Source: a virus. Taken from it: 64,000 nt of DNA. The stretch is taken from positions 16,050 through 80,049 of IMG/VR virus record IMGVR_UViG_3300009183_000070. The stretch is one strand, 5' to 3'. Both the position numbers and the translations under genes were made by a program. Below, one piece after another: positions 49,874 through 64,000 of this stretch (its first letter is position 1; every line of letters begins with the position of its first letter). The notes beneath the pieces are model-generated. The model saw only the letters and a list, made by a program, of their open reading frames with translations, ran no database searches and was not told the DNA's origin.

Positions 49874-49938
49874 AATCATTTCTCCATATTGTTATATATG
49901 CGTAACAATTCGTGATTAAAATTTCGTTGATCAACTGG

Positions 49939-49944: not shown

Positions 49945-49948
49945 AATT

Positions 49949-50719
49949 ATGAAGAATTTCAAAGCATGGTTATTTGAATCGGAAAGTTATATCGATGATA
50001 AAACAGTGTCTTACTCAGATTGTTTTGGCATTATAAGAGATGCCATAAAACTAAGAGATTCAGGAATTAGTGCATCAAGTTTAATTGATGCTAGAATTGG
50101 CATGGACACTAAACCATTTTTTTATTTAGAAGATATCAATAAAGTTTTTCTTGGAAATTTTGGCTCATATCATAGATCAATAATCGATAATCTTATAATT
50201 AGAAATTCTGAAGATGAAAATTTGCGAAATGAACTAGCAAGGCTTTATTACGGTCTTTCTGGCGCAAATTCCCCCATGGGAGTAGTTGGTAGAATTGCCT
50301 ATGGAATAAACTACAACAATATTAATATTTATATTCCTCGTGATTTGAGAGTTGATTTGGAAAGAAAAAATATGCAAGAACTCAAAGATAAAATGAGGGG
50401 CATGGATATCATTGCTTTTTACAAATCAAAGAGTGGTTCTAAAACTGACGAGAATGTTAAAAAGTGTCTTAAAAAACTTGAACAAGATGGACATGTCAGA
50501 AATAAAGACAAAACAATTGTAATTAATGAGAATAAAGTCACCATTTTTGATTCCCTTGAAGATGATTATAAATCTCCTGAAAATGAAAAAGAAGAAATTA
50601 AGCTTACAATGCAACAATCAAAAGAAAAAAGTCGTAGATTTATTCCTAAGCCTCAAACAATGAGACAGGCAGCATACCAAGCTGGTATTCCAATGGGTGA
50701 TTGGAACACAAATCTTTAG
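49949..50719 (+). CDS. Capsid-targeted-type family protein, paralog 1
   Basis: 256 residues. The leader MKNFKAWLFESESY fits the T4 capsid-targeting form and contains L-F-E before S, a [LI]xE gp21-type cleavage site. The body (SASSLIDARIGMDTKPFFYLED, read as SASSLIDAR and KPFFYLED; VGRIAYGINYNNINIYIP) is shared with the next two genes. The C-terminus QSKEKSRRFIPKPQTMRQAA plus YQAGIPMGDW is nearly identical in all three. I infer an internal head or scaffold-linked protein. The repeat units show recent duplication or gene conversion. Confidence 0.65.
   Translation: MKNFKAWLFESESYIDDKTVSYSDCFGIIRDAIKLRDSGISASSLIDARIGMDTKPFFYLEDINKVFLGNFGSYHRSIIDNLIIRNSEDENLRNELARLYYGLSGANSPMGVVGRIAYGINYNNINIYIPRDLRVDLERKNMQELKDKMRGMDIIAFYKSKSGSKTDENVKKCLKKLEQDGHVRNKDKTIVINENKVTIFDSLEDDYKSPENEKEEIKLTMQQSKEKSRRFIPKPQTMRQAAYQAGIPMGDWNTNL
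50593..50706 (+). repeat. 3'-terminal gene repeat, copy 1
   Basis: About 115 nt, coding for the shared C-terminus, nearly identical to 51367-51528 and 52223-52384. Upstream sequence of this copy is more diverged than in the other two. Confidence 0.75.
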
Positions 50720-50733
50720 TGAATAATAAAAAT

Positions 50734-51555
50734 ATGAGTAATTTATCTTTTAAGAAATGGTTTAATTTGCGAGAATCTAATGATTATTCTCCTGATATGA
50801 AAAATGCTTTAGAAATATTCATGAAACCAGAAGAAATTTTTGAAATTTCGCCTGCTTCAATTGCAGATGGTAATCTCACAAACACTCACAAGCCATTCAT
50901 TTATCTAGAATCTACAGATACAGTTTATTTGGGCATAGATGAAGGCTATCATAATAATTTAATTTTTCAAAAAATTAAGCAAGATCCAAATATAGGACTG
51001 GAACTTCGGAAAGCTTATGATGGAATTCACCAATCAGATTCCGATGTTGCTGCTGCTGTTGGCAGAATAGGCTATAAGGTTAATTTTGCCAAATTACAAT
51101 ACAGACTTCCAGCAAATAATATCAAAAAGTTTTTATATGGAGATGACGAGACAAATTGGCCTGAAATTATAAAAAAGCTAGCCGTTATTCCCTATCCAAT
51201 TAAACAAATTTTCGATCAAATTGATTTAATATCAATTTATCAAACACCGATACCAATCGCAGCATCATCCTGCAAAAAATTACAAGAAAACGGAGAAATT
51301 CGTGACCCATTAAAAACCGTTGTATTTCTTAACAATAAAGTGCATATGTTTAATGAATTAATTACTCATGCATCTTCTCCATCCAGCGAAGAAGAACAAT
51401 TAGATAAAAAAGAAGAACCTAAAATTACAACTCATCAATCAAAAGAAAGAAGTCGTAGATTTATTCCTAAGCCTCAAACAATGAGACAGGCAGCATACCA
51501 AGCTGGTATTCCAATGGGTGATTGGACAAACTATATTGGCAAAATTTTTCGGTAG
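50734..51555 (+). CDS. Capsid-targeted-type family protein, paralog 2
   Basis: 273 residues from ATG 50734 (an upstream TTG at 50701 overlaps the previous gene). Leader MSNLSFKKWFNLRESND has F-K-x-W and L-R-E, as in T4-type capsid targeting. Body SPASIADGNLTNTHKPFIYLE, AAAVGRIGYKVNFAKLQYRLP and the near-identical C-terminus (RFIPKPQTMRQAAYQAGIPM). Between them is a Ser-rich acidic linker HASSPSSEEEQLDKKEEPK, almost the same as in paralog 3. Probable internal virion protein. Confidence 0.65.
   Translation: MSNLSFKKWFNLRESNDYSPDMKNALEIFMKPEEIFEISPASIADGNLTNTHKPFIYLESTDTVYLGIDEGYHNNLIFQKIKQDPNIGLELRKAYDGIHQSDSDVAAAVGRIGYKVNFAKLQYRLPANNIKKFLYGDDETNWPEIIKKLAVIPYPIKQIFDQIDLISIYQTPIPIAASSCKKLQENGEIRDPLKTVVFLNNKVHMFNELITHASSPSSEEEQLDKKEEPKITTHQSKERSRRFIPKPQTMRQAAYQAGIPMGDWTNYIGKIFR
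51367..51528 (+). repeat. 3'-terminal gene repeat, copy 2
   Basis: Nearly identical to 52223-52384 over about 160 nt, including the linker HASSPSSEEEQLDKK; differs mainly at His/Gln before QSKE. Confidence 0.85.
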
Positions 51556-51569
51556 ATTCTAAATAATAT

Positions 51570-52427
51570 ATGTTAAATTTCAAAAAATGGATTGAATTTT
51601 TTGAGTCATCTTTGACTAATGAGTTATCAATTGAAGATGCCGTAAATGCATTTGTTGAACCAAGACCAGAATATGAATTGACAGCATCTACACTTATCGA
51701 TGCAAACTTGTGTCCAAACAATAAGTCATTTATTTATCTCAGTTCAAAAGACAAAATCTATGTTGGACAAAATGGCGAATATCACAGAGAAATAATCGCA
51801 AGAGAAAAAACAATAGATCCCATCTTGGCATCGGAGCTTCAAAGATCTTACGAGACATCATATGGAGGAGAATCTTATACTGCGCCAGAAAACGCTGTTG
51901 GTAGGATTGGCTATGGAGTCAATTATGATAGACTTAAAAAAATATTACCACTTGCAAATATCAAAGGTTTTTTGAGCAATGAAAAAGAAATTAGTGATGG
52001 AGAAGCAGCAATGCATATTTTTATGCCAACATCATTTCCTATCAAAAAATTGTTCAGCGAAATTGATGTCATAGCAATTTATTCTGGAGTCAAAACCCCA
52101 ATTTCTGTTGCTGCAAGAGCAGTGCAATTATTGATGGAGAATTCATCATATTCGCCAAGAAATATAGACAATACAATAGTCATGTATGACAATAAGGCCC
52201 ATTTTGGCAAAGAATTCATTACTCACGCATCTTCTCCATCCAGCGAAGAAGAACAATTAGATAAAAAAGAAGAACCTAAAATTACAACTCAGCAATCAAA
52301 AGAAAGAAGTCGTAGATTTATTCCCAAGCCTCAAACAATAAGACAGGCAGCTTATCAAGCTGGTATTCCAATGGGTGATTGGACAAACTACCCCTACATT
52401 TTTAGAGGAAATAATTATAATGGATAA
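51570..52427 (+). CDS. Capsid-targeted-type family protein, paralog 3
   Basis: 285 residues. Leader MLNFKKWIEFFESSLTNE. Body TASTLIDANLCPNNKSFIYLS and VGRIGYGVNYDRLKKILP as in the others; linker and C-terminus copy those of paralog 2, with TIRQAA for TMRQAA and a new end YPYIFRGNNYNG. CTAAATA box 4 nt before the ATG, no Shine-Dalgarno. Its end overlaps the next gene by 8 nt. Confidence 0.65.
   Translation: MLNFKKWIEFFESSLTNELSIEDAVNAFVEPRPEYELTASTLIDANLCPNNKSFIYLSSKDKIYVGQNGEYHREIIAREKTIDPILASELQRSYETSYGGESYTAPENAVGRIGYGVNYDRLKKILPLANIKGFLSNEKEISDGEAAMHIFMPTSFPIKKLFSEIDVIAIYSGVKTPISVAARAVQLLMENSSYSPRNIDNTIVMYDNKAHFGKEFITHASSPSSEEEQLDKKEEPKITTQQSKERSRRFIPKPQTIRQAAYQAGIPMGDWTNYPYIFRGNNYNG
52223..52384 (+). 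repeat. 3'-terminal gene repeat, copy 3
   Basis: Third copy of the unit at 51367-51528 and (partly) 50593-50706. Confidence 0.85.
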
Positions 52428-54180
52428 GGTTAATTTTTCAGAATGGCTTGAACTTCGTGAAGAAAAAGATGCCTGTTACCATAAGGTAAAAAGACGATAC
52501 AAAGTATGGCCATCAGCCTACGCCTGTGTTCCTACAAAAACTTCAAAAGCACTTACAAAAGAAGGCTGGAAGCATTACGAAGAATTAAGTGTAGGAGATG
52601 AAATACTTACATACAGTATGGCAAAGGATTCCTTAGAATTTCAACCAATTAAAAATTTGTATTCTTATCAAGACGCTGAAACATATGTAGTTCAAAATGG
52701 CAATAAAGGTTTGAAGTTTGAGTGTACTCCAAATCATAAGTGGGTTGTTAAATATAATTCATGCAAAGAGAATATAGGAACAAAAAAATACACAGATTTA
52801 GTTAATGATATGAGGCTTGTCACAACTGAAGAGTTATTGGCAGACTCTGAAAGCAATGGAAAATTAGTAATAAGTTCAAATTATAGTGACGATAATATTG
52901 TAGAATTAGAAAATTTCAATCTTATTGAGGAAAGAAAAGCTGATGTGTGGTGTCCTGAGACAGATAATGGCACTTGGTTAATGATGCAAGAAAATGATGG
53001 ACATGAAATTATAACAATTACTGGAAACTCAGGCGCACTTGTCCGTTGTCGAAAAGTTGGAGCAAAGAATTGGGGAATATCTGAAAATGTTGATAAAATA
53101 GCAATCAGATATTTTCATGAAGATGGTCGTGGATTAATGAACAATTCATCTTTGAATTATGAAAAATTAGATGATGAAGAATATTCCGATGTAGAAGATG
53201 AGTATCTAGGATTAAGTCAACCACCATCAGACTTACACAATAAAAAAATAGTTTTTGCATTTACGCCTGAAGGCGAACAAAAACACAATAGACTAATCGA
53301 ACTCTTATCTAAAGCATCAAAAAAAGGTGTTCGTCGTGAAGTCTTAGATTTATCAGATTATCAAATAGAGTGGCAAAGTGGAGATGGTCAACTGGGATTA
53401 AAAAAATTAAGAAATCAAAGAGATGAATTTCATGAAGGAACTTTTGATTTAGAAAAAGAGAGAGGTCTTCGTGGTTGGTTTGATCGCAACAAAGGAAAAG
53501 GATGGATTGATTGCAAAGCCAGTAAAAAAGGACATCTGGTGCCATGCGGCAGAAAAAAAGCAGGAAAAGGCACTGAACGAAAATATCCTGCTTGTAGACC
53601 AACATTAAGTGCCTGCAACAAATCGAAACATAAAAAGAAAACTACTAAGGCAATAAGTTGGAAAACCAAAAGTGAATCTAGATTGGATGAATTAAATTGG
53701 AAATCATTGCTTGCTAGTAGTGCATTGTTAGCTGGAGCGGGAAATGCAGGAGCCGCAGATCCAATTCATCATTTCAGTGGAGAAGAATTAGTCCCAATAG
53801 GACAATCAGAAAAAAAACTTGAAACAGATGAGCGTTTCATAAAAAGTTGGACAATGATCAAAGAAACAATAACAAATAAAATAAAAAAAAATCCAAACAT
53901 AAGATTTTTACATATTGAGGTTATTTTAGAACATCATCAAGGAAAAAAAACTGCTGTAGTTAGTCTTTCTGCCGAAATACAGGCAGAAGATGAACAATTG
54001 GCAAAACAAATTCTGATCAGAGAAGTCACTAGATCAGCAGCAGAAGTTGGGCTTCAAGGAGAAGCAATAAGAGGACTAAAGAAAATTTTCGTAAATTCTA
54101 GCATGAGCAATGAAAGCATGGGTTCAATATTCAAATTGAAACTTATTATCACACCACAAACTGCATTTTGGAGGGCATAA
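52420..54180 (+). CDS. Leader-type virion protein interrupted by a second intein
   Basis: 586 residues from ATG 52420 (AGAGGAAA upstream). Leader MDKVNFSEWLELREEKDA (F-S-E-W, then L-R-E). YHKVKRRYKVWPSAYA and, after the intein, SGALVRCRKVGAKNWG join into the phage motif KVWPSAYASGALV-CRK. Further on, WIDCKASKKGHLVPCGRKKAGK and KYPACRPTLSAC form the second Cys/Lys-rich motif of that protein type. A region near residue 440 looks like a short hydrophobic segment (LLASSALLAGAGNAGAADP). Removing the intein leaves about 418 residues. Probable basic, DNA-contacting virion protein. Confidence 0.7.
   Translation: MDKVNFSEWLELREEKDACYHKVKRRYKVWPSAYACVPTKTSKALTKEGWKHYEELSVGDEILTYSMAKDSLEFQPIKNLYSYQDAETYVVQNGNKGLKFECTPNHKWVVKYNSCKENIGTKKYTDLVNDMRLVTTEELLADSESNGKLVISSNYSDDNIVELENFNLIEERKADVWCPETDNGTWLMMQENDGHEIITITGNSGALVRCRKVGAKNWGISENVDKIAIRYFHEDGRGLMNNSSLNYEKLDDEEYSDVEDEYLGLSQPPSDLHNKKIVFAFTPEGEQKHNRLIELLSKASKKGVRREVLDLSDYQIEWQSGDGQLGLKKLRNQRDEFHEGTFDLEKERGLRGWFDRNKGKGWIDCKASKKGHLVPCGRKKAGKGTERKYPACRPTLSACNKSKHKKKTTKAISWKTKSESRLDELNWKSLLASSALLAGAGNAGAADPIHHFSGEELVPIGQSEKKLETDERFIKSWTMIKETITNKIKKNPNIRFLHIEVILEHHQGKKTAVVSLSAEIQAEDEQLAKQILIREVTRSAAEVGLQGEAIRGLKKIFVNSSMSNESMGSIFKLKLIITPQTAFWRA
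52525..53028 (+). mobile_element. Mini-intein (168 residues), Cys1, Gly-Asn end
   Basis: Inserted between AYA and SGALV, which together make the conserved SAYASGALV. Block A starts CVPTKTSKALTKEGWKHYEE, block B is LKFECTPNHKW (T-x-x-H), block F is VWCPETDNGTWLMMQ and the end is ITITGN followed by Ser. The penultimate residue is Gly, not His. Trp after the block B His and Cys in block F are also present, as in class 3 inteins, although residue 1 is Cys. There is no LAGLIDADG or other endonuclease, so it cannot home on its own. Confidence 0.85.
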
Positions 54181-54545
54181 TGAACAATTATTATGAATGG
54201 ATGAATTCCATAACACACTTTTTTGAAAATCAAGAAAATTATGGGTCTTCATGGGGAGAGATCGAAAATTTTCTAAAAAGAAGCACATGCAATGAAAAAA
54301 GAGTTCACGGTTTTTGTAGCCACCCAAGATGTGATAAGGCTCAAAATTTGATGGACACCGCAAGTGATGGTTCAGCCATGTCGCCAAATGACATGGAGAG
54401 AATTCAAAAATTTATTCATGAAAAATCTTGTTTTTCGATGAGAAAAGAAGGAATGTGTTTTCATCCTGCTTGTCGCACAAATCAAAGACACGCTGAATGG
54501 ATTCAGGATCAAATCAATCAAAATTACGGAAGCGAAGCGATCTAG
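54180..54545 (+). CDS. Cys/His-rich zinc-knuckle-like protein
   Basis: 121 residues from ATG 54180 (GGAGGG upstream; overlaps the previous stop, TAATG). Two matching units STCNEKRVHGFCSHPRC (about 39-55) and KSCFSMRKEGMCFHPAC (about 84-100), each C-x7/8-C-x-H-P-x-C, look like two zinc knuckles. The rest is helical. Role unknown; RNA or protein binding is plausible. MNNYYEWMNSI may be a weak form of the leader motif. Confidence 0.6.
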   Translation: MNNYYEWMNSITHFFENQENYGSSWGEIENFLKRSTCNEKRVHGFCSHPRCDKAQNLMDTASDGSAMSPNDMERIQKFIHEKSCFSMRKEGMCFHPACRTNQRHAEWIQDQINQNYGSEAI

Positions 54546-54547
54546 TC

Positions 54548-54763
54548 TTATTTTTTTGGATGATCTATTTCAATCATGCATTCTTTTCCTCCTTCCACAA
54601 AAGGCCAAGGATCGTGAATGCAGCTTGTTATTTCAACCGACTTGTCTGCAATCCAATCATTCATCTTTGGATCAAAATCTGGCATCTTAGGATGCCAGAC
54701 TAATCTTCCTTTAAGGCCTTTGGTTATGTAACCGGGATAAAGGAAAATGGTTGTTGGCTTCAT
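54548..54763 (-). CDS. Small hypothetical protein
   Basis: 71 residues. TIFLYPGYITKGLKGRLVWHPKMP and SVEITSCIHDPWPFVEGG look like a compact beta protein. GGGG lies upstream of the ATG. Not recognised. 2-nt gap to the convergent zinc-knuckle gene. Confidence 0.55.
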   Translation of the reverse strand: MKPTTIFLYPGYITKGLKGRLVWHPKMPDFDPKMNDWIADKSVEITSCIHDPWPFVEGGKECMIEIDHPKK

Positions 54764-54898
54764 CTTGTTTCCCCAAGGCTCTTCTTGTTTCGATTCAATT
54801 TAATGTTTTTATTACCGATAGTCAAGTATTTGATCGAGAATAGTCGATCAAAATAATAAATAGAATTGGCAGCAAAACAATTTTAAGCAAGGAGGCTT

Positions 54899-55063
54899 AT
54901 GTTTATTGTCTTATCTTTGATATCCATGTTTTTTGTTTTCATAGGTTTCTCTTTGATTATCGTGTCACTTTTCATGATATTCAGTCAAGAATATCCCGAA
55001 GACTGCAATAAATTAAATTCTATGCACATCCGCATGATTATAAGGATTTTGAGAAAAAAGTAG
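54899..55063 (+). CDS. Small membrane protein (54 residues)
   Basis: ATG 54899 with AAGGAGG upstream and a TAATAAATAG box at about 54852. FIVLSLISMFFVFIGFSLIIVSLFMIF is one long helix (or two), then a basic tail (HIRMIIRILRKK). Ends 3 nt from a convergent gene. Role unknown. Confidence 0.55.
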   Translation: MFIVLSLISMFFVFIGFSLIIVSLFMIFSQEYPEDCNKLNSMHIRMIIRILRKK

Positions 55064-55066
55064 AGA

Positions 55067-55324
55067 TTAAAAACTTTGTAAGAATATGGGGGTGTTAGGC
55101 CCCATCCAAGAACCACTAACATTAAATTCAAAAAATTCCTCTGCCTCTTCAAGATTCATTTCACGACAGAGGATTTCTATACATTTCTCTCTGTCGTAGA
55201 TGGCAAGTGCTGGTTGGCTTATTCTTCTTCCGATTCCAATTAAAGCTTCATCATATCCATCTGCCAGTAAGGCATCTGGATTTTCATCAATAAGTTGTTC
55301 TTTGATTGCTTCGCATGAACGCAT
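55067..55324 (-). CDS. Conserved phage hypothetical protein
   Basis: 85 residues (GAGGG upstream). PDALLADGYDEALIGIGRR, ALAIYDREKCIEIL, EEAEEFFEFNVSGSWMG: I recognise this small acidic alpha protein as very widespread in phages and bacteria under no known function. Length is normal. Confidence 0.8.
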   Translation of the reverse strand: MRSCEAIKEQLIDENPDALLADGYDEALIGIGRRISQPALAIYDREKCIEILCREMNLEEAEEFFEFNVSGSWMGPNTPIFLQSF

Positions 55325-55390
55325 CGCATTCCCTCGTGTTGCTCATAATCTCTTTTGGCAATCATAAAGCAAAAAAGGTGAAAATCAATT

Positions 55391-55427
55391 ACAAAAAATA
55401 ACCGCCAGAGCAAAATACTCTGGCGGT
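55391..55427 (-). terminator. Rho-independent terminator (minus strand)
   Basis: Perfect ACCGCCAGAG/CTCTGGCGGT stem, 7-nt loop; on the minus strand it is followed by a T-rich tract. Ends the HEAT-like gene at 55459. Confidence 0.85.
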
Positions 55428-55458
55428 TCAAGTTTTAATTTCTTTTTAGGAAATAAAA

Positions 55459-56181
55459 TTAGTTGGTTTCATCGGGTACAGTTATGGTATTGATTCTCTT
55501 TACCTTGAAGCCGGGAATAGAGTCATCAATTGTTTCAACAGTCACTTGTCTAGTCCGCACAGGAGGCTTGCTAGATTCAGTTTGTGAATTGCTTTTTGGG
55601 CGATTCACGATTGCCTTCACCTCAACAACCCCACTCTTGTTGTTGCTCTTGGGGGGCACACGACGACGAACGCTTTCGTAATCATCATCTGCACCTTCAT
55701 TTGGAGAAGAAGGTGAGTTTGGAAGTCTGTTCTTGGCGTAAAAAATACGCCACAAGTTAGCCGAATCAGACTTGTGGGCAGGGTTGGAATTAGGATAAGG
55801 TCCGAAATCAACACGCCTATTAAGTTGCACTACAGCGATATAAGTCAAAGCTTCACGGGCTGCTTGAGAGACGAGAGGATCGGTGTCCTCCAGAAGCATG
55901 AAAAGTGTTTCATCAGGCTTATAAGCCATTCCTGCTGCAAAGGCAGCGGCAACCCTGTGAGTAGTATCTCCAGAAGTAATGGCTGGCATCAGCATGTCCG
56001 TATTGCTACGGAGATTACGGGCCAATCCAGTTGCGTGAAGCCTCATCTGAGTAATGCTTTCAGGCGTATTAAAATAGCTCGTTCTCGATGGAGAACAATT
56101 TCCACTTTGGCATCCCACCGCTTGACACATTGCATCAAGACCGTTTTGTCCACCCACGAAAAGCAATGTCATTAACAACAT
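55459..56181 (-). CDS. Exported HEAT-repeat-like protein
   Basis: 240 residues (AAGGAG upstream). MLLMTLLFVGGQNGLDA could be a short signal sequence. RVAAAFAAGMAYKPDETLFMLLED and SQAAREALTYIAVVQLNRR are two HEAT-like helical pairs (with D-P-L-V turn). The C-terminal 100 residues are a Pro/Ser/Lys-rich tail. Planctomycetes use many exported HEAT proteins and the codon use appears more GC-rich than around it, so host origin is likely. Role unknown. Confidence 0.6.
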   Translation of the reverse strand: MLLMTLLFVGGQNGLDAMCQAVGCQSGNCSPSRTSYFNTPESITQMRLHATGLARNLRSNTDMLMPAITSGDTTHRVAAAFAAGMAYKPDETLFMLLEDTDPLVSQAAREALTYIAVVQLNRRVDFGPYPNSNPAHKSDSANLWRIFYAKNRLPNSPSSPNEGADDDYESVRRRVPPKSNNKSGVVEVKAIVNRPKSNSQTESSKPPVRTRQVTVETIDDSIPGFKVKRINTITVPDETN

Positions 56182-56204
56182 TTGTTGAACTCCTTGTTTT
56201 ATGC

Positions 56205-56214: not shown

Positions 56215-56224
56215 TGACGGAATA

Positions 56225-56401: not shown

Positions 56402-57967
56402 TCAAGACATGCCTAAAAGATTCTTGGCTTTAGCTTTCACTTCTTCGGCTATTTTCTGACCTGCATCGCTTTTAGCAAGTAGATCAACAACTTGGGAAAA
56501 GTAAAAATAGACTAGAGAAACAAACTTGAATTTACCAGCTATTTCAAGGAAATCTGTGAATCCTGCTCCGTATGCCGTCAGGCCAGCAACTGTAGGACCA
56601 AGTATCGGATTTTTGATTGTGTGCTTTGCCATTACAAGCATTGTTCCAAGTATCTTATTCAAAGATTCCAATTTCAACTTGTCCCTATCACCAGATCCAA
56701 TTCCCTTTATTATTTCGTAAATCGCCAATGCTGCGGCGATTTTCTTACCAGTCAATTCAATCATCTTTGAATAACCAAACAAGAAATCAGCGCCCTTAAT
56801 TGTTTTGCTTATTGTTGGATTTTTAGTGGCAAGATCGTAAACATTTGATATTTGAAGGTTTGAAAACATATCTCCAATTACATCATGCAAAGAATCAACA
56901 TCTGAAAACATATGATGAGCAGCATCTGCATAACTATGTTCCATAGCCTTGATTCGAGGAGTTCTCCAATCGCCAGATTGTGTTATCGCAGTTAAGTGGC
57001 CAAGGCTGACCCCTGTTCCAATAGTAGTTGGATCAATGATCCCCATATGTTCTTTTTCCTTGCCTATCATCTTCAATAAGTTTTTCTTAGGTCTGTATGG
57101 ATTAATTTTGAACTCTTGATTGTTCACACTAAGAACGATCTCATCGCCACTACCAGACTTAACTATTTTGTTGCCAACAATTTGGCACCAGTCATTCCAA
57201 AGAACCTTTGAAATATCATCGCCATACAAATCTTGCAAAGTATCCAAGAATGCTGCATAGCCTCTCATTCCTACATTGCTGTCTTTTGCGACAACATCAA
57301 GAATTGGGTTTCCTTCTTTGTCCAAAACAACTTTCTTATTTTTTTTCCTCTTTTGCAAAGTAAATCCAGATTTTTTTTCTTTTGCTTTAATGTCTGCTCT
57401 TAACATTGTGTCATATGCTCTGGTATTCACAGAATCGATACAACCGAATTTACCAACTATCAATTGTGTTGCGAAAGCAGCCTTTGTAATTCCCAATCCC
57501 TCCACATTTTGGTAAATGTACTTCCATATTTCAAATTCAGATGAAGTGCTAAGTGATGTGGTTTCACCTTTCATGAGTCGCATGATATTGCTAAAAATGG
57601 AATTTTTATTTTTCCACAAATCAGCGATATAGAAAGCTTGATTTGGTCTTTTTTTGTTTGCGCCTATCATGTTTGCATATTTGTGGAAAGGCTGTAATTT
57701 ATAATTCCAATTGTCGGTCCTTACTGCATCTTCAAAAATCCATTTCAAGAATTCAGGGAATGTTTGCCTTACAATCTGCCACTCTTTCTGAATTGTATAA
57801 AACACGAAAGCAAACACGATGAACATGTTCGTAGAATTGCTTTTTGCAAATTCATTTATTTGTGGGTTATGCAAGCAAAAACCGCTTACTTCTGAATCTC
57901 TTTTTTGACCTAAAGTGATTAAAGTATCTTCTTCGGCAATTAGCCAATCTTTGAAATTAATGTTCAT
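56402..57967 (-). CDS. Large leader-type virion protein with HhH-like segment
   Basis: 521 residues. Leader MNINFKDWLIAEEDT contains F-K-x-W and I-A-E, a gp21-like site. Around residue 155, YIYQNVEGLGITKAAFATQLI and FGCIDSVNTRAY resemble a phage helix-hairpin-helix segment (G-L-G-x-x-K-A, then C-x-D). A charged KEKKSGFTLQKRKKNKKV part follows. The last 130 residues are hydrophobic helices (MLVMAKHTIKNPILGPTVAGL). It starts on the stop codon of the exostosin gene. Probably a head protein with DNA contact; inference. Confidence 0.6.
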   Translation of the reverse strand: MNINFKDWLIAEEDTLITLGQKRDSEVSGFCLHNPQINEFAKSNSTNMFIVFAFVFYTIQKEWQIVRQTFPEFLKWIFEDAVRTDNWNYKLQPFHKYANMIGANKKRPNQAFYIADLWKNKNSIFSNIMRLMKGETTSLSTSSEFEIWKYIYQNVEGLGITKAAFATQLIVGKFGCIDSVNTRAYDTMLRADIKAKEKKSGFTLQKRKKNKKVVLDKEGNPILDVVAKDSNVGMRGYAAFLDTLQDLYGDDISKVLWNDWCQIVGNKIVKSGSGDEIVLSVNNQEFKINPYRPKKNLLKMIGKEKEHMGIIDPTTIGTGVSLGHLTAITQSGDWRTPRIKAMEHSYADAAHHMFSDVDSLHDVIGDMFSNLQISNVYDLATKNPTISKTIKGADFLFGYSKMIELTGKKIAAALAIYEIIKGIGSGDRDKLKLESLNKILGTMLVMAKHTIKNPILGPTVAGLTAYGAGFTDFLEIAGKFKFVSLVYFYFSQVVDLLAKSDAGQKIAEEVKAKAKNLLGMS

Positions 57968-58890
57968 GAAATATTTAGCGATTCTTTTAGAAAATTATGG
58001 AAATTTTCAGGACAAAACCATTTTTCCCATGTTTGTCTTGCAGCTATTGAAGCTTGTATCAAATTCCTTTTTTCTTTGAATTCATATATTTTCTGAGGTA
58101 TTGAATCTATTTCGCTTTCTTTTACTCTTAAAACAAATTCGTCGTAATTAATTTTATGCTCAATCGGTAGTTTTGTTTCATCAGAGATTAAAATAGGAAT
58201 CCTGCCAGAAGCGATTGTTTCAAAAAATCTTACAGATGACATCCCAAACCCTTTTGGGCATAGAACGAATTTGCTCATTTGTATCAAGCCGATATAATTT
58301 CTTTCTATTTCTTCTGTTTCTCTTCCCATAAATTTTTCAAACCAATAGCGTTTATTTATCACGACATTTTTCAAGCCAGAAACAGAATTGGCAGCTTTTT
58401 TCCTGATTTCATTGCAAAAGTATCCTTGAAAAGAAACATCGTAGTGGGCAAGGTCTATAGAAGAAATTAATTTCGGCACTTCAACAATTGGCTGATAATA
58501 CAAACACTTGTTTTTACTTGATTTGTTTACAGAAAAGGCAAAGACAATTGAATTTTCTAATGTTTTGATTGGTCTTGTTTCATCAGATCCAACAAAAAAT
58601 ATGTGCTTCTCGGGTTTGTGTTTGAAAAAAGCCAGATTTTCAGACAAGTGATTAAAAAGTTCTTTTTCGTCTTTTAGATGATGTGTGTGGATTATTAAAT
58701 AAGGCACAAGGAAATAATCACATTCAGATGGACTGTAGTTGGGTATTGAACTAATTTTTCCTATGTGGTGATAAGAATTGTTGAGTTTTGGCTTTTTTCC
58801 AATGTTTTTTTCATCAAATGGAGTGCAACACCATTCAGAGTTGTGGGTTCTTTCATTTAGGGATAAGCGATCATAGACATGAAATTTCAT
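57964..58890 (-). CDS. Exostosin-family (GT47-like) glycosyltransferase
   Basis: 308 residues. DYFLVPYLIIHTHHLKDEK, HIFFVGSDETRPI and, near 210-260, FVLCPKGFGMSSVRFFETIASG and RIPILISDETKLPIEHKINYDEF match the exostosin domain (F-x-L-C-P-x-G, R-x-F-E-x-I-x-x-G-x-I-P-I-x). Such enzymes build beta-linked glycan chains. TATAAT on the minus strand (58901-58896) ends 5 nt before the ATG, with no Shine-Dalgarno. Overlaps the next gene by 4 nt. Confidence 0.85.
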   Translation of the reverse strand: MKFHVYDRLSLNERTHNSEWCCTPFDEKNIGKKPKLNNSYHHIGKISSIPNYSPSECDYFLVPYLIIHTHHLKDEKELFNHLSENLAFFKHKPEKHIFFVGSDETRPIKTLENSIVFAFSVNKSSKNKCLYYQPIVEVPKLISSIDLAHYDVSFQGYFCNEIRKKAANSVSGLKNVVINKRYWFEKFMGRETEEIERNYIGLIQMSKFVLCPKGFGMSSVRFFETIASGRIPILISDETKLPIEHKINYDEFVLRVKESEIDSIPQKIYEFKEKRNLIQASIAARQTWEKWFCPENFHNFLKESLNIS

Positions 58891-58913
58891 GTCTTATTAT
58901 AGTATGTTGACAT

Positions 58914-59070
58914 GCTAGATGACGGCGCAGGCATCGAGGCCGTAATCCTGCCTCGATTGTGTTGGTATGGTCATCTCAGGCAAGGAGCAGCCCTCAACAA
59001 CGACCATCGTGTTAGATACAAGGGCCAATGGACAAAACCCATGATCTCAACCCGCACTCTGTCATCTAGC
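58914..59070 (+). ncRNA. Structured RNA candidate, 157 nt
   Basis: GCTAGATGAC (58914-58923) pairs with GTCATCTAGC (59061-59070), closing the whole element. Inside are ATCGAGGC/GCCTCGAT and ATGGTC/GACCAT pairs. It is clearly GC-richer than its surroundings and contains no frame. TATAGT lies upstream at 58898-58903 and TTTT follows the 3' arm, so I place it on the plus strand (minus also possible). No family recognised. Confidence 0.5.
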
Positions 59071-59107
59071 TTTTAAGAAGCTACTATGATTTGCTATTGG
59101 AATAAAG

Positions 59108-59135
59108 AAAAACCCCTTCATTTCTGAAGGGGTTT
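59108..59135 (-). terminator. Terminator after tRNA-Ile (minus strand)
   Basis: AAACCCCTTCA/TGAAGGGGTTT stem; on the minus strand it is followed by TTTTTCTTT, directly after the tRNA 3' end. Confidence 0.9.
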
Positions 59136-59137
59136 AT

Positions 59138-59437
59138 GGGATCGGTGGGGATTGCACCCACGACCTAAGCGTTATCATACCACTTCGGCTTTCGCCGCCA
59201 TCTTGCGATGTTCGTGGTCTGGACTATGTCACAACCATGCCTTGCGGTTTAGGTCCACCCCCCATAGTCTCTACACACGCCAGACGATTTCTCGTCCGCT
59301 TGGCTCGGCGTTGCCACGGGATTGATCCCAGAGGTTTCACCGAATTCGGGGCGATCCGATAGGCAGTTTCCCAACCTATCGCTCATAAGGTCTGAAGACC
59401 ATTCAAGCACTCCGCTCTCCTACTGAGCTACGATCCC
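59138..59437 (-). tRNA. tRNA-Ile(UAU) interrupted by a group I intron
   Basis: On the minus strand exon 1 (59437-59405) and exon 2 (59175-59138) join to a full cloverleaf: acceptor GGGATCG/CGATCCC, D stem GCTC/GAGC, anticodon stem GAGTG/CGCTT, T stem GTGGG/CCCAC. With the 5' site after U and an intron ending in G, the loop reads CTTATAA, anticodon TAT. If the ends were shifted, GAT would result; both are Ile. CCA not encoded. It would read AUA, frequent in this AT-rich genome. Confidence 0.85.
59176..59404 (-). mobile_element. Group IC3-like self-splicing intron in tRNA-Ile
   Basis: 229 nt on the minus strand between U34 and A35. Core elements: GGTGAAACC, TGGCAACGCCGAGCCAAGC, GTGTAGAGACTATGGGG and GACATAGTCC (P7 pair GACTA/TAGTC). 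The first 10 nt can form P1 with the exon CTT pairing to GAG with a U-G at the splice site. The layout is close to the Azoarcus tRNA-Ile intron as I remember it. No endonuclease gene is inside. Confidence 0.88.
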
Positions 59438-59523
59438 AATAGTCAATCCAGAGCAGATTGAATTGACTACAACCCTATTATTGTTGCTCCAAAACAAAAG
59501 TCAAGCGAGATTATATATAAATC

Positions 59524-60249
59524 ATGATGAATTTCAGGGCATATTTTGAAAAAGTCGAATTGACTCTCAAATACCACGATGATTTGAATCCATCTTTTTG
59601 GAAGAATGGAATTCTTGACTCAGATGTTAGGGATCATTTGCTCGACATAGCTGAATTCTTTCGTGATTATGCTAATATTCCCAAAGATGCGGTCAAGGAC
59701 ATAATCTTCACTGGAGGCAACGCAAACTACAATTACACCGAGTTTTCCGATGTTGATGTTCATCTGATAATTGACAAGAAAAAGCTCAAGGTTTGCGATC
59801 CTGAAATCATGGATGATTATCTTAGTGATAAAAAAGCCTTAATAGCTCTTACTCATAATATCAAGATAAAAGGATTTCCTGTTGAGTTGTATGCACAAGA
59901 TGAGAAACAAGCCACATCATCTGACCAAGGAGTATTCAGTTTGAAAGACAATAAATGGATTAAAAAACCAGCCAAGAAACAAATTAATCTAAGAGATCCC
60001 TATCTTGTTAAAAAGATAAAAGATATTGAAAATCAAATTAAAAGATTCATTGACGGCAAATCAAAAGATGTTAAAGAGATGGATGACTATAAAGAAAAAT
60101 TGAGAAAAATGCGAGGATCAGCAGTTCAGCATGGAGGAGAATTCAGTTTGGAAAATTTGGCATTCAAGGAATTGAGAAATAGAGGACTTCTTGAGAAGTT
60201 TTCTGACTATATTAAGGATGTCGAAGACAAGAGGCTCACTCTTAAATAA
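59524..60249 (+). CDS. Phage-type nucleotidyltransferase
   Basis: 241 residues (MMNFRAYFEKVE; the second ATG at 59527 is possible). KDIIFTGGNANYNYTEFSDVDVHLIID (read as KDIIFTGGNANYN and FSDVDVHLIID) gives the G-G-N and D-V-D metal site of the nucleotidyltransferase fold, then GFPVELYAQDEKQ and DNKWIKKP. This form is common in T4-like phages. TATATAAAT sits directly before the ATG. N-terminal M-N-F-R-x-Y fits the leader group. Substrate unknown; could act in the virion. Confidence 0.82.
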   Translation: MMNFRAYFEKVELTLKYHDDLNPSFWKNGILDSDVRDHLLDIAEFFRDYANIPKDAVKDIIFTGGNANYNYTEFSDVDVHLIIDKKKLKVCDPEIMDDYLSDKKALIALTHNIKIKGFPVELYAQDEKQATSSDQGVFSLKDNKWIKKPAKKQINLRDPYLVKKIKDIENQIKRFIDGKSKDVKEMDDYKEKLRKMRGSAVQHGGEFSLENLAFKELRNRGLLEKFSDYIKDVEDKRLTLK

Positions 60250-60274
60250 TTTATTTTAATCACATAGAGGTAAA

Positions 60275-60952
60275 ATGTTAACTAATTATCGAGATTGGAG
60301 AAGAAAATTTAGGGAAGATTTTGCATCTTCTTTCCCCAATTCAAAAAGAAAATGGGTTTCCATAGAAAAGTCCCATATAATCGAAGATCCTGATTTGGCT
60401 CAACAAATTTTTGATCTTATTGATGATGCCTACAAAGGAATAGGCGGAAATGCCAATATTAGGTCGAAACATGATTTAACTAGCGAGTTTTTGAAGGGCG
60501 ATCTTTCAGTAGTGAAGGCTATTGATTTAGATGACGATTCTGATCCAGATGCTGTGATTGGCTATAAGCGCACAGACAAAGGCAATAAGGCTGTTCTTTC
60601 GGCAGCTAAAGGATCGAGCGAAGAAGCTAAAAAATTATTGATTGACAAAAAGAAAGAGGAATTCAATAAAGGTGACGCTTATGGCGAAGTGTCTGGACCT
60701 CTTGCTAAGAAATTAATTGATGCTACAGTTCCTGTGATAGAGGACGAGGAAACTGTTAGGAGCATGTTGCCCGGCAAAAATATCATATGGCACGGTGAAC
60801 ATCCAGAGCTTGCAACTTTGCCACCTAAAATAGCAGCAACATTTGGCAAGCATAAGGGTTGGTACACTAGGTTGATTGGTGGACACCCTCATACAAAATT
60901 GATGATAGGCTTGAGAAATAAGCCCAGCCAAGTAACTGAAATTGGCGACTGA
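60275..60952 (+). CDS. Conserved T4-superfamily virion-associated protein
   Basis: 225 residues (AGAGG upstream). Leader MLTNYRDWRRKFREDF (weak form of the group motif). DDAYKGIGGNANIRSKHDLTS, DLDDDSDPDAVIGYKRT, AYGEVSGPLAKKLIDA and HKGWYTRLIGGHPHTKLMIG are known to me from a protein common in T4-like marine phages, sometimes called acetyltransferase-like. Enzyme activity is not clear from the sequence. Directly follows the nucleotidyltransferase gene. Confidence 0.72.
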   Translation: MLTNYRDWRRKFREDFASSFPNSKRKWVSIEKSHIIEDPDLAQQIFDLIDDAYKGIGGNANIRSKHDLTSEFLKGDLSVVKAIDLDDDSDPDAVIGYKRTDKGNKAVLSAAKGSSEEAKKLLIDKKKEEFNKGDAYGEVSGPLAKKLIDATVPVIEDEETVRSMLPGKNIIWHGEHPELATLPPKIAATFGKHKGWYTRLIGGHPHTKLMIGLRNKPSQVTEIGD

Positions 60953-60972
60953 TTACCAATTTTCTAAAATTA

Positions 60973-61824
60973 TCATCGTAAGTCTCCGTAATGTGTGGTC
61001 GGAACTGTAAATTTTGGATCAATGAAATTGTTAGATCTCATGTGTTTTGCGATTTTGTTTTGAACAGCTAAAAGTTGATTGTAAATACTTTGCCTGCTGA
61101 ATGGCTTATTTGTTTTCGTATTTATAAATTGCCTTTGGTATTCTTCGTACCAAAGGCAATCTATTCTTCTGTTTACGAAACAGCGCAACATGCATTCTTC
61201 TTTAGGACTTAGTTTACATTTATAAATCAGATTGTTAAGTTCGCTATCAAAGTTATTACCGCATTCAGTTTCGATATGCTTTGAGAAATTATTGAAGTTG
61301 AATGTTTCTGAATCAAAACTTGATTCATAATAAAGATTAAAGTTTTTTCTTCTTTCTTTCTTTAGTTTATTCTTATTGAGTTGCCCTTTGATTCTCATAA
61401 AGATTGCTTTATGGACGAATGTAGTAAATGATGCTTTGATCTTATAGGTGCGATATTGCCATGTGGCAGAACGAATTGCTAGAAATCCATCTGTAACAAA
61501 TTCATCAAACTTTTCAAAATCAATTCGCATTTTATGCATGATATTAAAAATCATGGCATGATACTGTTCAGCAAGCAAGTTTTCAATTTGCTGTGCGTAA
61601 AACATGTTTTGAATATCTTTTTTGTACTCGGTTAAGTATCTCGGTTTGATTTTTTCTATTATGGATTCTGGATTCTTGTATATGCTCAGGATGAATTTCA
61701 TGTAATCACGACGAGATATTTTCATTCTTTTGCTCCATTTGAAGCAAAGATCGTTGCTTTTTTTAAGTTTTTCAAAGTCAACTAGTTCTTTGATATTTTT
61801 CCGCATCCTGCTTACATATTCCAT
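60973..61824 (-). CDS. Third sigma-70-like factor
   Basis: 283 residues (GAGG upstream). FDEFVTDGFLAIRSATWQY (about 106-124) and ASFTTFVHKAIFMRIKGQL (about 131-149) match region 2.2-2.4, preceded by helices. Region 4 (SPKEECMLRCFVNRRIDCL and FSRQSIYNQLLAVQNK) is weaker. More diverged than the other two. It could direct another phage promoter class. CTCT/AGAG mini-hairpin before the ribosome site. Confidence 0.7.
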   Translation of the reverse strand: MEYVSRMRKNIKELVDFEKLKKSNDLCFKWSKRMKISRRDYMKFILSIYKNPESIIEKIKPRYLTEYKKDIQNMFYAQQIENLLAEQYHAMIFNIMHKMRIDFEKFDEFVTDGFLAIRSATWQYRTYKIKASFTTFVHKAIFMRIKGQLNKNKLKKERRKNFNLYYESSFDSETFNFNNFSKHIETECGNNFDSELNNLIYKCKLSPKEECMLRCFVNRRIDCLWYEEYQRQFINTKTNKPFSRQSIYNQLLAVQNKIAKHMRSNNFIDPKFTVPTTHYGDLR

Positions 61825-61866
61825 GATATTCCTCGCTCTCTCTCATAGAGTGCAGATTTTGAGTTA

Positions 61867-62316
61867 TCACGCTTCGGATTGGATTAGTTCTTCCAAACCA
61901 AAGTGAAATGGCCAGTTAGCCCTTGATGATTCTATCTCGTCGATAATTTTTTTCAAGTAATTTCTTTTGGTGGTGTAGTAATCCATACCTCTTTGTATTT
62001 GCAATTCCTTAGGATCTTTGGCTAATCCATAAATCAATGCCCCATGTAATTCAATCATGGTATTTGATGATGAATTAATTCTATGTTCAACATCACCAAC
62101 TACATGGTTTTTAATCTGTTCATCCGTCAATTCAGACTGTTGCTTAAATCTTTCGTAGTTCATGCAACGAACAATACTCAAAACTTGAGTTAAATTCAAT
62201 TCAAGTAAAATCTTTGTGTCATCGGTTTCTCTTTCAATGAATATTGACTTTTCATCAAAACACTCTTGATAAATATGGTTCTTGCCGTCCCAGAAAATAC
62301 TCAGTTTAGTAGACAT
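61867..62316 (-). CDS. Hypothetical protein
   Basis: 149 residues (GAGGTG upstream). SIFWDGKNHIYQECFDEKSIF and LLELNLTQVLSIVRCMNYERF, with later helices GDVEHRINSSSNTMIELHGAL. Not recognised. Preceded by TATAAT (62370-62365 on the minus strand) and a CCGTC/GGCGG hairpin. Confidence 0.6.
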   Translation of the reverse strand: MSTKLSIFWDGKNHIYQECFDEKSIFIERETDDTKILLELNLTQVLSIVRCMNYERFKQQSELTDEQIKNHVVGDVEHRINSSSNTMIELHGALIYGLAKDPKELQIQRGMDYYTTKRNYLKKIIDEIESSRANWPFHFGLEELIQSEA

Positions 62317-62330
62317 AAATCACCTCAACA

Positions 62331-62370
62331 ATCAGTCCGCCACAATGAGACGGATTTGTTTTTAATTATA
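62331..62370 (-). promoter_or_regulatory. TATAAT box and CCGTC hairpin (minus strand)
   Basis: TATAAT (62370-62365), 11 nt, CCGTC (62353-62349) pairing with GGCGG, then GAGGTG and the ATG at 62316. Same order as before 7969, 25737 and 41271. Confidence 0.5.
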
Positions 62371-62680
62371 CATCACTTTTCATGTTCTCTTTAATGCTTT
62401 TCACCTTGGAAAGCAAAGAAATAATTTTATCAATTTTCTCCTCGTTGAGAATGATGTCTCCAAAACCGTCATTTGAGTTGTGATGATTAAAAACATACTT
62501 GATTGCATGCCAAATCCTCATCCAGATAGATTGATCTGGATTGAAGTTGATATGGAAAGATACATCGACATCAACGATTTTATCGTTTTTTTTCCACTCA
62601 AACAATTCAATGATTGCTATGTGACCGGGGCTTCCACATTCACATGTCAGGAATTCTTGGGTCGAATCACTCATGCTCAT
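62366..62680 (-). CDS. Small zinc-binding-like phage protein
   Basis: 104 residues from ATG 62680 (AGAAGGA upstream); longer starts at 62722 and 62800 are weaker. TQEFLTCECGSPGHIAIIELF (C-E-C, H) resembles a small phage protein with a C-x-C and G-H site, then VDVSFHINFNPDQSIWMRIW. Role unknown. Its stop overlaps the promoter region of the next minus gene. Confidence 0.6.
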   Translation of the reverse strand: MSMSDSTQEFLTCECGSPGHIAIIELFEWKKNDKIVDVDVSFHINFNPDQSIWMRIWHAIKYVFNHHNSNDGFGDIILNEEKIDKIISLLSKVKSIKENMKSDV

Positions 62681-62855
62681 TTTTTTGATCCTTCTAATAG
62701 AGTTGACGGGTTTCCAAGGCATTGTAAATTCATACTTCGCAATGGAATTTGGGTAAAACCTTTTATTTTTGAAGAAAAACTGGGTATTCTGGAAAGACAA
62801 GATGAGTCATGGTGGCTCTTATAGATGGCTATAAAATTATAGCGTGGAGATTGAA

Positions 62856-63179
62856 ATGAATAATGCTGTTAATGATGATAAGGAACACATGGAATTGTTT
62901 ATCAGTAGAGTCAAAAGGATAGTCAAGATGGTGAAGCTTAATGCGCCACGCACTTTAATTTCCGGCGATATTCAGCAGGTTTACTCGATGATTCCATCGA
63001 TTTTGAAAGAAATAAGCGAAGAAAATCATGTTGATAAAAATAAAATAGCATTCAATGTCGCTTGTCAGAAAAACAAACTAAGGATTTGCGCCAAAGAAGA
63101 ATGCGTCAATGAAATTGCACATCTGGAAAAAAATAAAATTGGCATCCAGTTGTGTTATATTTGTCAAAGCAAAAAATAA
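62856..63179 (+). CDS. Hypothetical protein with Cys pair
   Basis: 107 residues from ATG 62856 (GTGGAG upstream). Helical start (HMELFISRVKRIVKMVKLNAP) and a C-terminal C-A-K-E-E-C / C-Y-I-C set (ICAKEECVNEI, LCYICQSKK) that may bind zinc. Not recognised. Confidence 0.55.
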   Translation: MNNAVNDDKEHMELFISRVKRIVKMVKLNAPRTLISGDIQQVYSMIPSILKEISEENHVDKNKIAFNVACQKNKLRICAKEECVNEIAHLEKNKIGIQLCYICQSKK

Positions 63180-63210
63180 GCAAAAAATCTATCTTTGCTT
63201 GTGAATAATT

Positions 63211-63256
63211 CTCTCCACATTCCTAAATAATTAGAAATGTGGAGAGATTTTTTTAT
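63211..63256 (+). terminator. Hairpin/terminator abutting the next ATG
   Basis: CTCTCCACA/TGTGGAGAG stem with a CTAA/TTAG inner pair, then ATTTTTTT ending at the ATG 63257. It may end the previous transcript. The following gene must then have its own promoter or be read through. Confidence 0.65.
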
Positions 63257-64000
63257 GAATAAGTTCAAAAGCTGGTTGTTAGATCGTGACACTAATCTTC
63301 TGGAAACCATGTCCAGAGAAAAAATGATGGAAGATGATCTTGATGCCTTGAATTATGCAAAAAAGCAAAAAAGACAAGAAAAAGAACTTGATGAAAAAAT
63401 TCGTATAATTAAGTATCTTGCTAAAATTAAGAAAAAAATAGAACAATTCGTTGACGCACACGACAAAGGCGCTCAAGCTCTTAAGCTGATAGCAGCATCT
63501 TTGTTGACTCACGAAAAGGGCAGAGAAGGCATTAAAACCCATGTTCGTCATGTTTATAGCAAGGATTTGAAAAGCCTCAAAGACTTGCAGAAGATTTTCA
63601 CTCATGAAAACTTGATCAAGCTTTTCCACGATGTTGATGCTCTCCACTCTTTGAGCATGATATTGGATTCCGATTTTGAAAGTCATGTCGGCAATTTGGA
63701 AAAAGATTCTCAACACGGTCATATTGATCATTCACATGGCGAGTTGGGCAAAAAATTTGCAAGTTTTGTTGTGAGCCATATCAAGCATGCTGCTGACGAT
63801 GTTTTAGCATCATTCCTTCAAGATCATAATAAAGATGAAGGTCAAGACGACGATGTTCCTCAAGATCAGGAATCTGGCGATGAAGCCGCTCCAGATATGT
63901 CTGCTGATGAAATGAATCCTGATATGGAAGTAGGCGGTTCAGCACAAGATGCAGGTCAAATGGGTCAGGATGCAGGTCAAATGGGTCAGGATGCAGGTCA
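63257..64000 (+). CDS. Leader-type head-assembly protein, 3'-truncated by window end
   Basis: ATG 63257 and open to base 64000 (248 codons seen). Leader MNKFKSWLLDRDTNLLETM. A long coiled coil (about 25-70, KKQKRQEKELDEKIRIIKYL), helices to about 185, then an acidic low-complexity part (DEGQDDDVPQDQESGDEAAP) and a GQDAGQM repeat at the end. The acidic coiled-coil form resembles prohead scaffold or core proteins. I infer a role in head assembly. Confidence 0.6.
63925..64000 (+). repeat. Coding repeat GQDAGQM, cut by window end
   Basis: Tandem 21-nt unit (GATGCAGGTCAAATGGGTCAG) at the end of the window, in frame with the acidic tail of the leader-type protein. Copy number beyond the edge is unknown. 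Confidence 0.8.

Follow-up and report, generated by a model that had tools for sequence, protein, structure and literature searches.

A Capsid-Targeting-Like N-Terminal Leader on Dozens of Otherwise Unrelated Proteins of a Probable Jumbo Phage

Introduction

The closest described counterpart of the element treated here is the capsid-targeting sequence of the internal proteins of phage T4 (Mullaney and Black, as reviewed in PMC9026906). As summarised in that review, mutagenesis of the internal protein IPIII assigned positions 4 and 7 mainly to targeting and positions 8 and 10 to processing, and an Asp placed at position 10 stopped processing but not targeting. The T4 proteins Ip1-Ip3 are presented in PMC12373910, which cites Repoila et al. 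1994, as injected anti-restriction proteins without other homology. The stretch analysed here, referred to as the window, comprises the 64,000 nucleotides at bases 16050-80049 of the 80,049-bp linear IMG/VR record IMGVR_UViG_3300009183_000070 (G000). A first-pass annotation of its sequence had proposed that a set of its proteins, most of them encoded between 49949 and 63400, shares a T4-like leader and is packaged in the head. We find that the leader is carried by roughly 44 predicted proteins on a chain of overlapping records, many of them preceded by a late-promoter-like box, and, judging from sequence comparison, it very probably works like the capsid-targeting sequence of the T4 internal proteins.

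Source Records and Their Linkage

Four records, G000, G001, G026 and G036, can be chained by their overlaps to a total of about 288 kb, referred to as the composite. The overlap of the IMG/VR record G001 (71,123 bp) with G000 shows 98.6-99.6% identity, and G001 runs 47 kb beyond the end of G000. The two further junctions, each at 99.99% identity, link the last 9,916 bases of G001 to the end of G026 (136,667 bp) and the first 11,192 bases of G026 to the start of G036 (45,631 bp). The G000-G001 junction joins two strains that differ slightly, and the placement of G036 through the G026 overlap replaces an earlier argument from tetranucleotide likeness and synteny with the relative G014. These overlaps suggest that the four records represent one phage genome. 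G014 (225 kb) is colinear with the start of G000, part of G001 and G036, with median protein identities of 68, 77 and 66%, respectively, and in LR756511, an unannotated metagenomic record of 595 kb, genes related to those of G000, G001 and G036 occur together. The gp23 of LR756511 is 80.9% identical to that of G036, with a median identity of 38-39% elsewhere (41 of 123 G000 proteins and 16 of 65 G036 proteins having a match). Since genes for Peptidase_S77 and gp23 lie on the chained records, G014 is colinear with them and LR756511 holds their relatives together, the window would derive from a jumbo phage with a T4-type head.

Frequency and Form of the Leader

Two motifs were counted, motif A being F[KR]x[WFY] at residues 3-10 and motif B being [FY]xx[FWY][LIVFM]x(1-3)E, and expected counts were obtained from internal positions of the same proteins. 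Genes were called as the longest open reading frame (ORF), with nearby starts allowed up to codon 26. Motif A was derived from the list in the first-pass annotation, and the TAAATA element discussed below from the window and G001. Because the window's own record thus partly inspired the motif, the fair tests lie outside that record, and the weight is borne by the rest of G001 (for the motif), G026, G036, G014, LR756511 and IMG/VR. Motif A was found in 8 of the 117 genes of G000 (1.10 expected, p 2e-5), in 9 of the 69 genes of G001 beyond the overlap (0.91 expected, p 4e-7), in 3 of 63 in G036 (0.42 expected, p 0.009) and in 13 of 276 in G014 (1.57 expected, p 1e-8), where motif B occurred 14 times against 1.2. 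Among the 1022 genes of LR756511, the counts were 32 against 8.2 for motif A and 33 against 8.0 for motif B. Over the 403 genes of the composite, 37 carried motif A (3.8 expected, p 2e-24) and 35 motif B (2.8 expected), and 50 starts carried one or the other, against 6.3 expected (p 1e-28). As about 6 of these 50 hits are expected by chance, the tagged proteins would number roughly 44.

The leader consensus can be written M-x(1-3)-[FY]-[KRQ]-x-[WFY]-[LIF]...E, with two frequent sub-forms among the 33 motif-A representatives, FKxWLxxxE (Glu at F+8, 16 of 33) and FKxFLE (Glu at F+5, 14 of 33). Leader genes are distributed along the whole 288 kb, the FKxFLE form predominating in a cluster of 14 of them at 85.5-98.3 kb of G026. 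The enrichment of Glu and of hydrophobic residues fades past F+8, and the common region ends about 10-15 residues in. An [LI]xE follows the targeting residues in 11 of 33 own-genome leaders against 1, 2 and 4 of 33 for comparison; it is absent from several leaders, and the spacing of its Glu is unlike that of T4. When a T4 stretch of 43 genes was scanned blindly, ipI, ipII, ipIII and one other gene were returned against 1.28 expected (p 0.04), so the scan picks up known capsid-targeted proteins; another T4 stretch, of 26 genes, gave gp15 alone, the gp21 substrates gp22, gp23 and gp24 remaining unmatched.

The eight N-termini that the first-pass annotation had named, at 1147 (minus strand), 49949, 50734, 51570, 52420, 57967 (minus strand), 59527 and 63255, are all present, those at 50734 and 52420 at an internal ATG and not at the longest-ORF start. 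The shared F-[KR]-x-[WFY] that it had claimed holds for seven of the eight, 52420 reading F-S-E-W, and the [LI]xE said to follow just after is found in four (LFE|S, LRE|S, LRE|E and IAE|E), while two have FxE (FFE|S and FLE|S) and 59527 and 63255 have none. Its caution that the leaders at 59.5 and 60.3 kb (59527 and 60275) are weak matches was justified and extends to 63255. The leader that it had recognised is therefore real, and its list covered a small fraction of the tagged set.

Spread in IMG/VR

IMG/VR was scanned for TAAATA followed by 2-5 nt, ATG, 1-2 codons and F-K-x-W-[LF], with F and W exchanged in the control, and at least 120 stretches were found against 13 in the control. The figures that follow hold among the matches listed, which gave 80 loci for follow-up. 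These contained 71 distinct ORFs, 67 of at least 40 amino acids, and 82 matches lay in frame with the ATG against 3 out of frame, compared with 6 of 13 in frame in the control. After L040, L083, L028 and L053 had been dropped, 61 leader ORFs formed 43 clusters, whose representatives have Glu at F+8 in 17 of 43 and at F+7 in 12 of 43 (background 7.4%). An [LIVMF]xE was found at F+4 to F+10 in 25 of 43 representatives against 4/43, 4/43, 2/41 and 2/39 in later windows; Glu is absent from the scan pattern, and F+4, which the pattern fixes as L or F, adds at most 3 of the 25 sites. A second scan, for the promoter box with the FKxF[LF]E form, returned 74 stretches against 1 in a codon-reversed control, with 74 matches in frame and 10 out, and its 53 ORFs formed 31 clusters. 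Both sets retain loci of the phage itself or its relatives, namely of G026 (L065 in the first scan; L065, L228 and L269 in the second) and L248 of G021.

Modularity and Predicted Cargo

The bodies behind the leader are largely unrelated. At E 1e-3, the 50 leader proteins fall into 46 clusters, and the only paralogous groups found were a triplet in the window and two pairs in G001 (45544/47956 and 55509/56746), so that a short leader stands on non-homologous proteins here, as in the 43 and 31 IMG/VR clusters. In the G026 pair 90152/90666, the 27 leader bases are 96% identical, the next 90 bases 30% and the upstream bases 57%; in 95000/96689, the leader DNA is 93% identical, the next 90 bases 32% and the upstream bases 47%. 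The means over all pairs are 30% for the 90 post-leader bases and 44% upstream. With upstream identities of only 57% and 47%, promoter and leader did not clearly move together in these two pairs, whereas in 94128/95000 the upstream (80%) and leader (85%) bases are both shared and the following bases are 39% identical. With evidence mixed in this way, it is no more than a tentative and rather doubtful suggestion that a unit of about 40 bp, comprising the late promoter box, 4-5 nt, the start codon and the targeting peptide, acts as a capture cassette that would make any gene placed behind it late, near-leaderless and head-packaged. If so, huge phages would in this way put together and rearrange a large arsenal for injection.

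Among the leader proteins of the own genome that were scanned, most matched no known family. Those above the Pfam cut-off comprise an S-adenosylmethionine (AdoMet) decarboxylase, a HAD domain, ankyrin repeats, helicase-associated repeats and a flavin mononucleotide (FMN) reductase, the last scanned minus its final 14 residues. Additionally, a protein with a poly(A)-polymerase head domain in G026 starts MKFKLWLENEE at the internal ATG 86966, which is beyond the start limit and hence outside the counted 50. In the IMG/VR set, 51 of the 61 leader ORFs were scanned, near-duplicates and very short ones being omitted; among the matches listed (the best 25 of 40 and 25 of 37), Pfam gave ART-PolyVal in two proteins and a peptidase C39, NUDIX, GNAT and AAA domain in one each, and PHROGs gave an HNH endonuclease in two. 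T4 Alt, a packaged ADP-ribosyltransferase according to PMC9026906, is a precedent for ART-PolyVal cargo. Such an activity was also sought nearer home: PF18760 was unmatched in G000, G001, G014, G021 and G036 (a search that did not include G026), and G001 49713-50507, considered as a candidate, gave no convincing match to a known ADP-ribosyltransferase; the activity is thus claimed solely for 2 of the 51 IMG/VR leader proteins.

A separate observation concerns G026 83588-85485, where the leader-bearing AdoMet decarboxylase lies near a MetK-like ORF without leader (an AdoMet synthetase as judged by eye); one idea is a polyamine supply for packaging.

The Late-Promoter-Like Box

The T4 late box is described as 8 bp long and beginning at -13 (PMC2988020), and its form is given as TATAAATA in T4 and NATAAATA in S-PM2 (PMC2984593). 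A box of the TATAAATA type, in the form of its TAAATA core and here a predicted promoter, was found within 20 bp upstream of 28 of the 50 leader genes against 12 of the 353 others (p 2e-20), at a distance from the ATG of 4 nt in 21 cases, 5 in 6 and 7 in 1. A Shine-Dalgarno-like motif precedes 1 of these 28 genes against 120 of 235 other ATG genes; it precedes 10 of the 22 leader genes that have no TAAATA. The association is less marked in G014 (5 of 21 leader genes against 13 of 255, p 0.007) and in LR756511 (14 of 47 against 38 of 975), where TATATA-like forms were also seen by eye. Of four sigma-like proteins scanned, three match phrog_351. With the T4 box placed on the leader genes, their transcripts would start within 1-2 bases of the ATG and the mRNA would be near-leaderless.

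Head Genes on the Chained Records

The first-pass annotation had called for a gp21-like protease in the rest of the genome. Peptidase_S77, the family of T4 gp21, was searched for in G000, the window's own record, and in G001 and found in neither; it was found at G026 7572-7982 (Pfam, E 2.7e-26), in a record chained through G001 (9.9 kb, 99.99%), and in G036 (E 9e-27). A gp21-type protease would thus be present in the same phage, provided that the records linked by 99.99% overlaps are one genome. In both G026 and G036 it lies near gp23, with one further gene between the two, which occupies the place of the T4 scaffold gene and matches no Pfam family. In the N-terminal region of gp23, G036 and 15 other records, one of which (G026) has an identical protein, without exception keep an [FY]L[NH]E together with [LM]EN and NE motifs, LLE|N standing one alignment column off the T4 FLTE|A junction; the T4 cut position was taken from the 65-residue propeptide given in PMC5694885 together with the T4 sequence. 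The leader form FLE|N resembles this [LM]EN site of gp23.

Interpretation of the Leader

T4 IPIII starts MKTYQEFIAE|A, and the conserved leader positions (aromatic, aromatic, hydrophobic, Glu) coincide with its targeting and processing positions as these are reviewed; aromatics at the Y4 and F7 targeting positions are what the motif A count (37 against 3.8) measures. The T4-like reading has therefore survived the computational tests, namely residues of the IPIII type, 46 unrelated groups and a gp21-type protease on a chained record, to the extent that the cited summary describes the T4 determinants. From these features we infer head packaging, core binding, cleavage, delivery and the mRNA start point. 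Each cargo gene would be transcribed late in infection, in many cases under a T4-type late promoter of its own, which would lie so near the start codon that the mRNA almost lacks a leader of its own. The N-terminal peptide would bind the prohead core, so that the protein would be enclosed while the shell forms, a gp21-type protease would cut after the Glu and free the cargo, and the freed cargo would exit with the DNA at the next infection. Since dozens of unrelated proteins share a tag that matches the head-loading tag of T4, it is probable that the virus brings a large cargo of proteins into infected cells. Strict membership in the T4-type capsid-targeting class is, as far as sequence can tell, unproven.

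Several observations speak against this reading. Many leaders have Glu at F+5, F+7 or F+8 and not at the F+6 of T4, and some have Asp or nothing. Enrichment of the leader is not universal among T4-like phages, as the same scan of the T4-like cyanophage Syn9 gave none (3 of 185 genes, 1.95 expected). A census of Peptidase_S77 in the 63 records behind the 80 listed loci, with L025, L030, L041, L051, L070 and L076 left out, found it in 19 of 63 leader records and in two of 13 controls (two of the three controls above 100 kb); since controls carry it too, the co-occurrence is not discriminating and was rejected as evidence of association. Furthermore, the tagged AdoMet decarboxylase and the poly(A)-polymerase-like protein look like ordinary intracellular enzymes, for which the benefit of packaging is not obvious.

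These two proteins and the FMN reductase, all plausible intracellular enzymes, are also what favours the alternative that survives best, which is nonetheless unlikely: that the leader is an address elsewhere, in the tail, the membrane, the replication compartment or a host target, and that the proteins stay out of the head. Against it, the conserved residues coincide with the capsid-targeting determinants reviewed for T4, IPI, IPII and IPIII of T4 are all among the hits of the blind motif scan, and genes for gp21 and gp23 lie on a chained record. Distinctly less probable is that the first codons form an mRNA element (a downstream box) that aids translation start on near-leaderless late mRNAs, the peptide itself being inert. 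That 27 of the 28 leader genes with TAAATA have it 4-5 nt ahead of the ATG, and that these 28 genes nearly lack Shine-Dalgarno-like motifs, would agree with such an element, but synonymous codons vary in the 82 in-frame matches among the matches listed (F as TTT in 51 and TTC in 31; K as AAA in 71 and AAG in 11), and the own-genome leaders swap aromatic and hydrophobic residues among themselves. It also leaves out the 22 leader genes without TAAATA, and T4 ipI, ipII and ipIII, which have the same peptide pattern, carry AGGA-type upstream sites. Common descent, by which the leader would be the remnant of one family with diverged bodies, could account for the three small paralogous groups; it is scarcely credible in view of the 46 clusters, of Pfam domains from unrelated families behind the leader, and of the two gene pairs in which identity drops directly after the leader to the level of unrelated pairs. 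Chance resemblance in an AT-rich genome rich in Lys and Phe, to which about 6 of the 50 hits and weak starts such as 59527 and 60275 may individually be owed, has a negligible probability for the whole set, being refuted by the composite count (p 1e-28) and by the scrambled controls, which yielded 13 and 1 stretches where the true patterns yielded at least 120 and 74.

If the leader is indeed a capsid-targeting sequence, a readable N-terminal tag would predict which proteins are head-carried and injected among the hundreds of unknown ones in uncultured huge phages, and would lead directly to proteins for anti-defence and host takeover, as it did with T4 IPI-IPIII. It would also give a rule for dating tagged genes (late, with near-leaderless mRNA) and a wider stock of natural tags for phage protein delivery.

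Members of the Set in the Window

The members that the first-pass annotation had placed in the set include a zincin peptidase, a triplicated family and a nucleotidyltransferase. The first, encoded at 686..1147 on the minus strand, starts MNFRFFLESEE and has an HExxH zincin-like metallopeptidase motif as seen by eye (Pfam Peptidase_Mx, E 0.027, below the cut-off); its place is upheld by conservation of the leader, which reads MEFKTFLESEE in G014 and MEGFRQFFEQTEE, with TAAATA, in LR756511. The triplicated family likewise provides good members, all on the plus strand: copy 1 at 49949..50719 (MKNFKAWLFESES), with TAAATA at 49939..49944, 4 nt ahead of the start codon; copy 2 at 50734..51555 (MSNLSFKKWFNLRES), from an internal ATG of ORF 50701; and copy 3 at 51570..52427 (MLNFKKWIEFFES), with TAAATA at 51560..51565, again 4 nt ahead. 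The protein bodies of the triplet are 37-50% identical; its 3' ends (50511-50712, 51332-51533 and 52189-52390) are 71% and 92% identical to the middle copy over 202 nt, and the tails KERSRRFIPKPQ are possibly homogenised.

Two further good members follow. The protein at 52420..54180 (plus strand, MDKVNFSEWLELREE) has an extein that is weakly DUF5872-like (E 0.0075, below the cut-off) and a 168-residue intein-like insert (CVPTKTS...ITGN|S) at 52525..53028, which runs from Cys1 to TGN|S, is inserted at PSAYA|SGALV and gave one PDB intein match, at only E 0.4. Residues 23-109 of that protein match phage records, several of them annotated as DNA polymerase (40% identity, E 5e-11), and about 456 bp, at about 53676-54133, are missing in the near-identical G001, where the protein continues into the next ORF. 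The other, at 56402..57967 on the minus strand (MNINFKDWLIAEE, 521 residues), has no Pfam or PHROG family and is preceded by TAAATA at 57972..57977 on the same strand, 4 nt ahead of its start codon. Close relatives sought for the triplet family and for the 521- and 769-residue proteins were found only in the near-identical G001, and structure prediction gave two models with mean predicted local distance difference test scores (pLDDT) of 39.3 and 36.2, which were unusable.

The remaining candidates are weaker. The protein at 24301..24714 (plus strand, MGAKLGFQEYVLLKEG) is a possible further member, weak and without TAAATA. The nucleotidyltransferase at 59527..60249 (plus strand, phrog_36119, named from annotated relatives) starts MNFRAYFEKVE, which matches the motif; its leader is doubtful because the two cyanophage homologues examined, of 45 records with a match, start otherwise. 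Equally doubtful is the leader MLTNYRDWRRKFRED at 60275..60952 (plus strand), outside the 50 hits. That start weakly resembles the FKDWRNKFDEA form at 6456 of L001, the 16 kb of G000 upstream of the window, whose G014 counterpart is MALISFGDWRKKFDEAS with TAAATA. At 63255..64000 (plus strand), the protein MNKFKSWLLDRDT has Asp in place of Glu and runs off the record; its 350 residues are complete in G001 at 23463-24515. In L001, 6686-7096 encodes a leader-like protein, MLSFHEWRAKRLDEAA, with tandem KKPDS repeats, and its G014 counterpart (MIFFNEWMQERFDEA) retains F-x-E-W and DEA at the start.

Other features were observed alongside. In the window, 48881-49879 encodes a zinc carboxypeptidase (Peptidase_M14, E 7e-17) with a hydrophobic N-terminus, and 2873-4648 a PhoH-like ATPase, recognised by eye, with an intein-like insert of about 348 residues at Walker A (GTGK|..HN|S) and endonuclease-like motifs seen by eye. 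A further N-terminal signature, L[SA]G[VILF]x(1,2)E (for example YLSGVINES), occurs in 5 of 99 G001 genes (24537(+), 37262-37618(-), 42490(+), 43194(+) and 61620-62819(-)) against 0 of 14,881 internal positions and may be another cleavable tag; in G014, three starts are like it, the motif count being 4 against 0.8 expected. G001 51606-55453 holds five tandem paralogous ORFs of 247-250 residues, glycosyltransferase-like by eye.

Comparison with Known Systems

In the open-access literature searched, no report of this leader in huge or metagenomic phages was recognised. Among described systems, P1 DarB is alike in that an N-terminal signal sends the protein into the head; no common multi-protein leader is described in the cited account (PMC9024508), so that it is set apart by description only. 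In giant phages of the SPN3US/phiKZ type, inner head proteins also lose N-terminal propeptides, several of them longer than 100 residues in the data cited (20 in gp45; PMC5694885), whereas the leader here, at about 10-15 residues, is no long propeptide of that type. The relative LR756511 shares the closely similar gp23 and the enriched leader and is more distant elsewhere. The T-even internal-protein loci, as far as they are described, resemble the present genes in being variable genes recognisable by a common leader; the T4 genes lie in two loci, whereas those found here are spread along 288 kb, apart from the 14-gene cluster in G026. The T4 proteins IPI, IPII and IPIII are alike in their N-terminal peptide of about ten residues, with aromatic-xx-aromatic-hydrophobic and then Glu, in their unrelated bodies and in belonging to a phage with gp21 and gp23. 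Going by the T4 literature cited, they are unlike the present set in being a handful, here matched by about 44 tagged proteins, many far larger, and in having Glu at F+6, where the present leaders have it mostly at F+5 or F+8; many of the present genes also have a late-type box 4-5 nt ahead of their start codon. The basic kind of system is thus already known from T4, and what is new relative to it is the scale, the cargo size, the Glu spacing and the coupling to a promoter.

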